This document shows positions 32,877 through 59,729 of a stretch of 60,380 nucleotides of DNA, one piece after another. Origin of the DNA: an uncultured Acetobacteraceae bacterium. Lineage in GTDB: Bacteria; Pseudomonadota; Alphaproteobacteria; Acetobacterales; Acetobacteraceae. The DNA is taken from positions 1 through 60,380 of the forward strand of contig CAITUP010000156.1 in the NCBI GenBank assembly GCA_903895595.1, in the 5' to 3' direction. A model generated the notes under the pieces. The model was not told the DNA's origin and did no database searches. It was given only the letters and a program-made list of their open reading frames with translations. The position numbers and the translations under genes were made by a program. Each line of letters begins with the position of its first letter. Position 1 is the first letter of the stretch.

Positions 32877-34196
32877 ATGGAGACCGATGTCGTCATTATC
32901 GGCGCGGGCTGTGCCGGCTTGGGCGCGGCCACGGCGCTGCGCGACGCCGGGCTGCGCTGCGTGGTGCTGGAGGCCTCCGGCCGTGTCGGCGGGCGTGCCT
33001 GGACCACGCGGCCGGCGGCGCTCGGCGGCGTGTGGTTCGACATGGGCGCGGTGTGGTTCCACGACGCCGAGCACAACCCGCTGGTCCGCATCGCCGAGGC
33101 GGCGGGCGACGAGCTACTGCGATCGGATCGGGTGAGGACCGAACGAACCTATGTCGGGGACCGGCTGGCCACGGCGGCGGAGTTGGCAGCGTACGATGCC
33201 GCTTGGCCGCGGTTGGAGGCGGCGGCCGATGCGATGCTGGCGGATCGGAAGGATGTGTCTCTGGCGGATGTCGCCCGCAGCTTGGCGGCCGATCCCTGGG
33301 CGGCGACGGTCGAGGCCTGGGAAGGGCCGGTGATCTGCGTCGTGGACTCCGACCGGTTCAGTGCGCGGGATTGGCGAAACAACGCGCTGGGCGGCAGCAA
33401 TCTGGTGCCTCAAGGCGGGATCGGGGCGTTCGTGGAGCGTCGTTGCGCGCCGGGGTTGGACATCAGGCTGAATACCCCCGCGCTGCGGATTCGCTGGGGC
33501 GAGGCCGGGGGGCGGGTGGCGGTGGACACCGCACTGGGGACGGTGACGGCGGCGGCGTGCATCGTAACCGTCTCGACCGGGGTGCTGGCGGCGGGCGCAT
33601 TGCGGTTCGATCCGGCTTTGCCGGCTGAGACTCAGGACGCCATCGCGGGATTGCCGATGGGACTGGCGTTGAAGGTCGCCTTGCGGGCGAACGGGCCGGA
33701 CCGGCTGGATCTGCCGGCGCATTGTTCGGTGGATTGGCAGGTCGCCGCACCGAACGACGCGCTGATGCCGTTTCAGTGCTGGCCGTTCGGGCGGGACTAT
33801 GTGCAGGGGTGGGTCGGCGGGTCCACGGCCTGGGAGCTGGCGCGCTCGGGCGAGGATGCGGCGGTGGATTTCGCGCTGTCGCAGTTGCGGCGGCTGTTCG
33901 GGGGGCGGGTCGACCGGCTGTTCGGCGGCGGCGGGCGGTTGGTGACGCACTGGGACTCCGATCCATGGTTCCAGGGAGCGTATTCCTACGCACTGCCCGG
34001 CCATGCCGGCGCTCGGCGGCAATTGGGGGAACCCCTGGCGGACGGGCATCTGCTGTTCGCGGGGGAGGCTTGTCACGCCGGCTTCGCCAGCACCGTTGCC
34101 GGAGCCTGGATCAGCGGGCAGGACGCGGCAGCGATTGCCGTTCAGCAGTTCTCATTATGGCGGTCGTCACCTCTTCATCGTCATGGTCGGGCTTGA
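32877..34196 (+). CDS. Flavin-containing monoamine oxidase family protein, 3' end altered by an insertion
   Basis: 439 residues. The FAD site is VVIIGAGCAGLGAATAL (residues 5-21) with GRVGGRAW at 40-47, and the C-terminal flavin segment is LLFAGEACHAGFASTVAGAW. It should oxidise an amine or an amino acid derivative to imine and H2O2. The last 13 residues (FSLWRSSPLHRHG region) are encoded by a 101-bp element inserted at 34144; removing it and one 11-bp duplication gives an original end A-I-A-V-R-T-V-R-S-H and a TAG at 34273-34275. The altered tail lies after the flavin-binding core, so the enzyme may still work. It begins 36 bases after the aminotransferase gene. Confidence 0.92.
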   Translation: METDVVIIGAGCAGLGAATALRDAGLRCVVLEASGRVGGRAWTTRPAALGGVWFDMGAVWFHDAEHNPLVRIAEAAGDELLRSDRVRTERTYVGDRLATAAELAAYDAAWPRLEAAADAMLADRKDVSLADVARSLAADPWAATVEAWEGPVICVVDSDRFSARDWRNNALGGSNLVPQGGIGAFVERRCAPGLDIRLNTPALRIRWGEAGGRVAVDTALGTVTAAACIVTVSTGVLAAGALRFDPALPAETQDAIAGLPMGLALKVALRANGPDRLDLPAHCSVDWQVAAPNDALMPFQCWPFGRDYVQGWVGGSTAWELARSGEDAAVDFALSQLRRLFGGRVDRLFGGGGRLVTHWDSDPWFQGAYSYALPGHAGARRQLGEPLADGHLLFAGEACHAGFASTVAGAWISGQDAAAIAVQQFSLWRSSPLHRHGRA

Positions 34197-34244
34197 CCCG
34201 ACCATGACGGGTATGCGGAACAAAATGGCAAAATGAGAACTGCT
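34144..34244 (+). mobile_element. 101-bp MITE-like element with 13-bp terminal repeats
   Basis: The ends are AGCAGTTCTCATT (34144-34156) and its exact reverse complement AATGAGAACTGCT (34232-34244). The element is bounded by identical 11-base copies of GATTGCCGTTC (34133-34143 and 34245-34255), the signature of target duplication. Inside is a CGTCATGGTCGGG hairpin. It has no coding capacity, so it must have been moved in trans. An 11-bp duplication is within the range known for IS4-family transposases; that link is inference. One end of a second copy is at 916-960. Confidence 0.92.
34179..34209. repeat. REP-like hairpin inside the MITE
   Basis: A 13-bp perfect inverted repeat, CGTCATGGTCGGG (34179-34191) and CCCGACCATGACG (34197-34209). 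Related arms occur at 7752, 26809 and 59637. It may have been carried by the element. Confidence 0.8.
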
Positions 34245-34255
34245 GATTGCCGTTC
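34245..34255 (+). repeat. 11-bp target site duplication (right copy)
   Basis: GATTGCCGTTC, identical to 34133-34143 immediately left of the element. The left copy is still in the amine oxidase reading frame; the right copy restores the original downstream codons leading to TAG at 34273. Confidence 0.92.
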
Positions 34256-34284
34256 GGACGGTTCGCTCCCACTAGGCGGGCGCT

Positions 34285-59370: not shown

Positions 59371-59575
59371 CGCGGATCGCGTCCGCGCATGACGGTGAAT
59401 GGGGCCCCGCCGGCCGATAATACGCGCCGCCAGTGTTCGCCCCATAATGTCGAATCGCAGCCCGGCCAAGCAGCGGGCTGGACGATGCACGGCCGGGACG
59501 GCGTGACGCGGGCGCTTTACGGGGCGGCACGCGGGCAGGTCTATCGCATATGGCCGGCCACCGCCCTTTTTCGTC

Positions 59576-59598
59576 ATCCTCGGGCTCGACCCGAGGAT
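59576..59598. repeat. REP-like palindrome
   Basis: Arms ATCCTCGGG / CCCGAGGAT with a 5-base loop, preceded by CGTC as in the other palindromes of the family. Confidence 0.65.
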
Positions 59599-59636
59599 CG
59601 CCAACGGCACTCTATCGCAGTTTTCCGCCGCTTCGG

Positions 59637-59659
59637 ATGGTCGGGTCTCGCCCGACCAT
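59637..59659. repeat. REP-like palindrome (MITE-hairpin type)
   Basis: Arms ATGGTCGGG / CCCGACCAT followed by GACGGG, nearly the same sequence as the hairpin inside the element at 34144. It lies 70 bases before the HigB remnant. Confidence 0.7.
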
Positions 59660-59729
59660 GACGGGACGGCAATGTCCGTGCGGCCTCCTTTGCCATATGC
59701 GATAGCCCTGGGCACGCGGGCGACGGGTC

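Follow-up and report, generated by a model that had tools for sequence, protein, structure and literature searches.

CGTC-tagged REPs have been defined by a CGTC tag beside an 8–9-bp stem that starts with AT and by a loop of 4–5 bases (PMC3733652, Di Nocera et al. 2013). According to the available parts of this source, REP dimers lie within palindromes in A. variabilis and, as CGTC dimers, in H. neapolitanus, and Acetobacteraceae are listed among the families without CGTC REPs; whether other transposases mobilise these REPs was left open by their definers. In Coxiella burnetii, small copies of the QMITE2 element look like bare REPs (PMC5896051, available text).

The window, i.e. the whole stretch of 60,380 nt of Acetobacteraceae DNA that was analysed, contains a short MITE whose cargo agrees with CGTC REPs in tag, AT-starting stem and 5-base loop. 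Head-to-head dimers, the prevailing arrangement of CGTC REPs, are seen among the REPs of the host genome, and these REPs are further alike in having no linked tyrosine transposase. The available text of PMC3733652 contains no description of CGTC REPs carried by MITEs that show target duplications. QMITE2 resembles the MITE in its size of 150–190 bp, the REP inside and direct repeats of 7–11 bp; however, its REP is of the GTAG and not the CGTC kind, and the available text of PMC5896051 names no parent insertion sequence.

Insertion sequences with ends like those of the MITE (CAGCAATTCTCATTTT) were found in Gloeothece verrucosa (WP_013335080.1, ISNCY label) and on a plasmid of Calothrix sp. PCC 7716. 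Both are 1.8–1.9 kb long and carry a transposase gene of approximately 443–465 aa, whereas the MITE is geneless. The Calothrix copy (1865 bp) is flanked by an exact 9-bp duplication; none was seen in the Gloeothece copy. Members of the ISMae2 group of ISNCY are about 1.4–2.4 kb long, have CAGGG ends and generate 9-bp duplications. By these features the group agrees with the parent elements described below in size and duplication length, but the ends differ after CAG. ISNCY and ISMae2 have been mentioned in Microcystis (PMC11448079), and ISNCY also in PMC7031236 (available text of both). A literature search, with most subscription journals outside its scope, yielded no recognised description of CGTC REPs carried by MITEs. 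The MITE end sequences had no match in literature text, which is a weak null result because sequences seldom appear as text.

Boundaries of the MITE and its target gene

The MITE is present in its short (103-bp) form at 34143..34245 on the plus strand. Its terminal inverted repeats (17 nt, 1 mismatch) are located at 34143..34159 (plus strand, CAGCAGTTCTCATTATG; similar ends are found on insertion sequences of relatives) and 34229..34245 (minus-strand reading, CAGCAGTTCTCATTTTG), and form part of an 18-nt inverted pair of 94% at 34142–34159/34229–34246. Between them lies a CGTC-tagged REP palindrome at 34179..34209 (plus strand, CGTCATGGTCGGG-CTTGA-CCCGACCATGACG) with a perfect 13-bp hairpin (34179–34191/34197–34209). 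DNA folding of the element strand gave -32.1 kcal/mol (z = -10.2 versus 200 shuffles of its own sequence). Exact matches to AGCAGTTCTCATT within the window were confined to the two MITE ends, with one more place at 2 mismatches. Six-frame reading of the 103 bp revealed no frame of transposase size.

In the initial annotation, a 101-bp element with an 11-bp duplication had been described. Inverted ends, inner hairpin and the flanking 11-base repeat were all found at the coordinates claimed there, with GATTGCCGTTC at both 34133–34143 and 34245–34255. The 11-bp duplication was, however, ruled out by comparing the flanks of 16 complete copies in the host genome, which set the dimensions at 103 bp and 9 bp. 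The base just outside the left end was C in 16/16 copies and that just outside the right end G in 15/16, whatever the target; the exception, copy L007, has C as right outer base. Since outer C and G are nearly constant across complete copies, they were assigned to the element, whose outer bases here are C (left) and G (right), and the duplication comprises 9 bp (ATTGCCGTT, at 34134..34142 and 34246..34254, no strand assigned). The 11-base match arose because the target by coincidence had G before and C after its 9 bases. If the outer bases are taken as part of the element, exact duplications are present in 13 of the 16 copies (9 bp, 10 bp in one); with outer bases left out, three of these 13, including the window copy and L007, show 11 matching bases. 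Copy L005 has a 9-bp duplication with 1 mismatch (by eye), and copies L003 and L037 have none. The claim of an inserted, non-autonomous element that has no gene of its own and duplicated its target was thus borne out, and it is beyond reasonable doubt that 34143–34245 is a non-autonomous MITE.

The flavin amine oxidase gene (32877..34196, plus strand) now encodes 439 aa ending AIAVQQFSLWRSSPLHRHGRA*, with its last codons and stop inside the MITE. In-silico removal of the MITE and one 9-bp copy yielded a 428-aa frame ending AIAVRTVRSH*, as had been predicted (RTVRSH-TAG). The insertion had also been said to have rewritten the gene end. This holds insofar as the tail was replaced by a longer one. 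The change is minor, however, with 17 residues in place of the final 6, beyond the match to the Amino_oxidase domain (PF01593, residues 13–419 of the 439-aa protein). A search for the amine oxidase in 33 genomes of the genus provided loci from the host genome and 11 relatives. Nine of the 11 relatives were readable at the gene end by motif (L174 and L175 were without motif match), and in this comparison of C-termini, likewise proposed in the initial annotation, the insert was absent from 9/9. The two best-scoring amine oxidases of relatives end AIAVQALG* and AIAVRAVGA*. The insertion is a small lesion in one gene.

The MITE occupies the gene's 3' end and faces a convergent reading frame, and REPs are frequently found downstream of genes (PMC3733652, available text). 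It could therefore have been kept as the gene end, with the hairpin acting as a terminator or mRNA stabiliser. We consider this quite unlikely: the sole terminator-like site found (34261–34281) is outside the MITE, no Rfam family matched the MITE at gathering score (one match was at chance level), and the nine inspected relatives manage without it.

MITE copies and REP cargo in the host genome

A genome-wide search for the 13-bp end (≤1 mismatch) gave 59 matches, and 0 with the reversed control. Of these, 27 proved to be left ends and 31 to be right ends, and one was a chance match, so that the search proposed earlier revealed dozens of copies, with 58 of 59 matches being ends of the family. 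Among the 59 classified matches no autonomous copy was found, and plasmid copies of the MITE were looked for without success. The family is present in two forms of 103 bp and approximately 189 bp. The 16 complete copies with both flanks measured 92 bp (one copy), 103 bp (four) and 184–190 bp (eleven), outer bases included. When 8 copies, three of them short and five long, were aligned, the five long copies were near-identical, and the short form lacked the stretch between two palindromes. In the ~189-bp form, the cargo is a head-to-head REP dimer.

Eleven of the 59 end matches were located close to a contig start (first 140 bases); therefore, the MITE family probably breaks the assembly. Together with the fragmentation of the assembly, this would also fit chance repeats or an assembly artefact, which is hardly conceivable: the window copy is inside a 60-kb contig and the 16 complete copies have different flanks.

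Another MITE, which belongs to an unrelated family and has the ends CAGGTCTATCGCATATGGC / GCCATATGCGATAGCCCTG, occupies 59536..59710 (no strand assigned) of the window. It is flanked by a 10-bp duplication (GGCACGCGGG, 59526–59535 and 59711–59720), its terminal repeats are 19 nt long and 95% complementary, and two different CGTC-tagged REP-like palindromes lie inside. Several copies of this family, with ends CAGGGNNATCGCATATG, are present in the host genome as 102-bp and 187–189-bp forms; the 10-bp duplication was exact in 4 of 7 complete copies examined.

The inner palindrome of the first MITE (CGTC, then ATGGTCGGG, loop CTTGA) fits a CGTC-tagged REP and also occurs in bare copies. We know of no transposase for CGTC REPs. 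The Y1 tyrosine transposase (PF01797) was not found in the host genome, with a control search positive in 5/14 genomes. The half-palindrome GTCATGGTCGGG had 234 and 237 matches on the two strands (471 in total; control 0). Places were classified from the 100 matches listed of these 471, the first in contig order, by end motifs (≤3 mismatches for the first family, ≤1 for the 10-bp core of the second), so that single misassignments are possible. Among the 100 matches listed, 60 places were distinguished: this MITE accounted for 7 and the second MITE family for 17, and 36 were bare, of which 1 was at a contig edge. Again among the matches listed, 13 of the 36 bare places were two-hit dimers of 72–114 bp (dimer lengths 72, 90, 95, 102, 105, 110 and 114 bp; counted where both partners keep the half-site), 4 were single 29-bp palindromes matched on both strands, and the remaining ones were single matches or one cluster. 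Within the taxonomic family of the host, the palindrome matched in 34/299 genomes (two candidates scored per genome). Two further arrangements were observed in the host genome. At G000:C11:47466-47681 (L324), tandem half-REPs (CCCGACCATGAC every 24 bp) adjoin a complete REP dimer, and at G000:C3:32500-32760 (L062), a diverged MITE end is followed by another REP-like palindrome (GTCATGCCGACGCAGGTCGGCAT).

The identity of the palindrome inside and outside MITEs would also be expected if the hairpin were native to the MITE and bare REPs were worn-down copies without their former ends, a scenario put forward for QMITE2 of Coxiella burnetii (PMC5896051, available text), and in the relative SHWL palindromes were seen inside MITEs only. 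This route is nevertheless rather doubtful. Among the matches listed, 36 of 60 places were without the end of either MITE family, and of the matching family genomes only the host (G000) and G014 had listed matches that reach a MITE end. Moreover, bare dimers vary in length whereas the five aligned long MITE copies are near-identical, and the same palindrome is present in two MITE families with unrelated ends. We therefore regard the REP as probably captured by the MITE and not born from it. A geneless element that carries a host REP between insertion-sequence ends suggests a possible route of REP spread, and riding in MITE shells is supported, in one genome, as one answer to how CGTC REPs spread. 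As a MITE, the element is nothing unusual. One REP class in two unrelated MITE shells is less ordinary, because the definers of CGTC REPs left their mobilisation open, and such cargo of two shells in one genome is a lead worth following.

Insertion sequences with MITE-like ends

Insertion sequences with these ends elsewhere, as anticipated in the initial annotation, were found in relatives. They are 1.5–1.9 kb long, have 9-bp duplications and encode a DDE transposase of ~450 aa. An apparently intact copy from the same genus (L215) is 1531 bp long, with an exact 9-bp duplication and a 458-aa frame. In a genome of the same family (L132), a 1583-bp copy with an exact 9-bp duplication has the ends CAGCAGTTCTCATTTTG / CAAAATGAGAACCGCTG and an interrupted gene. 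Including the Calothrix plasmid copy (L156), these were 3 of 11 two-ended candidates listed; in the other 8, the flank was cut or an exact duplication was lacking. An insertion sequence of the parent kind, with the ends and the duplication length of the MITE, is thus present in relatives and a cyanobacterium. The right end of the MITE has 23 of 24 outer bases in common with that of the insertion sequence L138 (by eye). In L132 (1835–1865, genome G014), a short palindrome-like insert was seen by eye to interrupt the transposase gene just before the conserved IENE motif.

With profile A1, built from four transposases, relatives were detected in 15/33 genomes of the genus. In the host genome, a transposase of the parent kind was not found by protein sequence or by a 4-row profile, in an assembly of 170 contigs that may miss a copy.

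PF01609 (DDE_Tnp_1) was above cut-off in 3 of 5 full-length transposases, and no NCBIfam model passed its cut-off on these five. A homologue is labelled ISNCY family transposase in one RefSeq record. DDE_Tnp_1 is not specific to one transposase family, which together with weak matches of NCBIfam IS4 models (best 26 bits versus a cut-off of 152) leaves room for an IS4-family member as the mover, the assignment suggested earlier. Target repeats of IS4 subgroups of ~8–13 bp would be compatible as well (PMC2266710, available text). The IS4 signature Y-(2)-R-(3)-E-(6)-K given in the available text of the same source was, however, lacking in all nine aligned transposases: the Y position was occupied by G or A and K was one residue off, at E+8 and not E+7 (in L154 this stretch comes after an intron junction). 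With the ISNCY name of one member also speaking against it, an IS4-family mover is unlikely, and the assignment was rejected. In L154, from a plasmid of Methylomagnum ishizawai, the transposase homologue leaves the family alignment directly after the RWKVE motif, and the next gene encodes a group II intron reverse transcriptase.

Our preferred reading, to which we assign a probability of about 0.9, is that the element is a MITE with parent-type ends and a resident REP as cargo, that it was moved in trans by a DDE transposase with 9-bp duplication, and that the short form arose by deletion. Two insertion-sequence ends (CAGCAGTTCTCATTWTG) enclose a shell of 36 bp per side (ends included) and the REP palindrome. 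Supplied in trans, the DDE transposase of the parent element would cleave at the outer C and G and link the MITE to a target with a 9-bp stagger, here the last codons of the amine oxidase gene, and gap repair would produce the 9-bp duplication. A transposase of this kind probably moved the other MITE copies too. The 103-bp form may have arisen when DNA between the dimer's two palindromes was deleted; these palindromes would also act as direct repeats. Points against this reading are the 3 of 16 complete copies without exact duplication, the negative search for the transposase in the host assembly and the SHWL result given below.

Distribution of the end type across genomes

CAGCARTTCTCATT was present in 12/33 genomes of the genus; one of them had 142 copies and another had 95, and the control was 0 throughout. 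A search of the named-genome collection with the two-ended pattern gave 84 stretches, from which 80 loci with 82 MITEs in 23 genome records were retrieved. The taxon labels of these records, taken as given and in several cases those of metagenome bins, were Acetobacteraceae (including Rhodopila sp.), Nostoc, Pseudanabaena, Verrucomicrobia, Akkermansia, Kiritimatiellota, Nitrospira, Gammaproteobacteria, Pseudomonadales, Desantisbacteria and others. The same 17-bp ends are thus found on MITEs from Acetobacteraceae, Cyanobacteria, Verrucomicrobia, Gammaproteobacteria and further groups. Duplications were exact over 9 bp in 35 of the 82 MITEs, had 1 mismatch in 16 and two in 2, and measured 4 bp in 1; 28 had none (5/82 MITEs were at the edge of the DNA analysed). 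One or more hairpins whose stem was perfect over ≥8 were present in 57/82 MITEs, compared to 3.4 expected from a home-made dinucleotide shuffle (20 per element). Hairpin-bearing MITEs occurred in 14 of the 23 genomes, and 9 genomes showed none.

Within the DNA analysed, inner 15-mers recurred outside MITEs in 5/23 genomes (CAIUEN, JAJDVS, JANXLQ, JASEHU, QJPH), where some matches were simple repeats; the controls gave 13 matches in DNA of other genomes, distributed over the k-mer sets of 5 genomes, and 1 with reversed k-mers. On this count, capture of host REPs was not supported as a general rule across phyla. In SHWL, the best-sampled relative, 0/1299 inner 15-mers were found in 128 kb outside MITEs; capture of a resident REP was therefore not shown there.

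Tentatively, and with less than even confidence, we propose that CGTC REPs of the genus spread inside MITEs, that at least two unrelated kinds of ends (9-bp and 10-bp duplications) each took up a resident REP or dimer, and that hairpin cargo lies between ends of this type in several phyla. If so, DDE transposases that work on borrowed ends would drive REP abundance, and bare REPs would arise or persist by other means. Since the 17-bp ends occur across taxa and the inner sequences differ freely, the choice of MITE cargo is testable.

A further multi-copy insertion sequence was observed at contig ends of genome G156 (L102, L109, L116, L123–L127, L129–L131). Its body is nearly missing from the assembly, with a fragment only at C60, and its left (CAGCAGTTCTCAAT) and right (CAGCAATTCTCATTTTG) ends are distinct.
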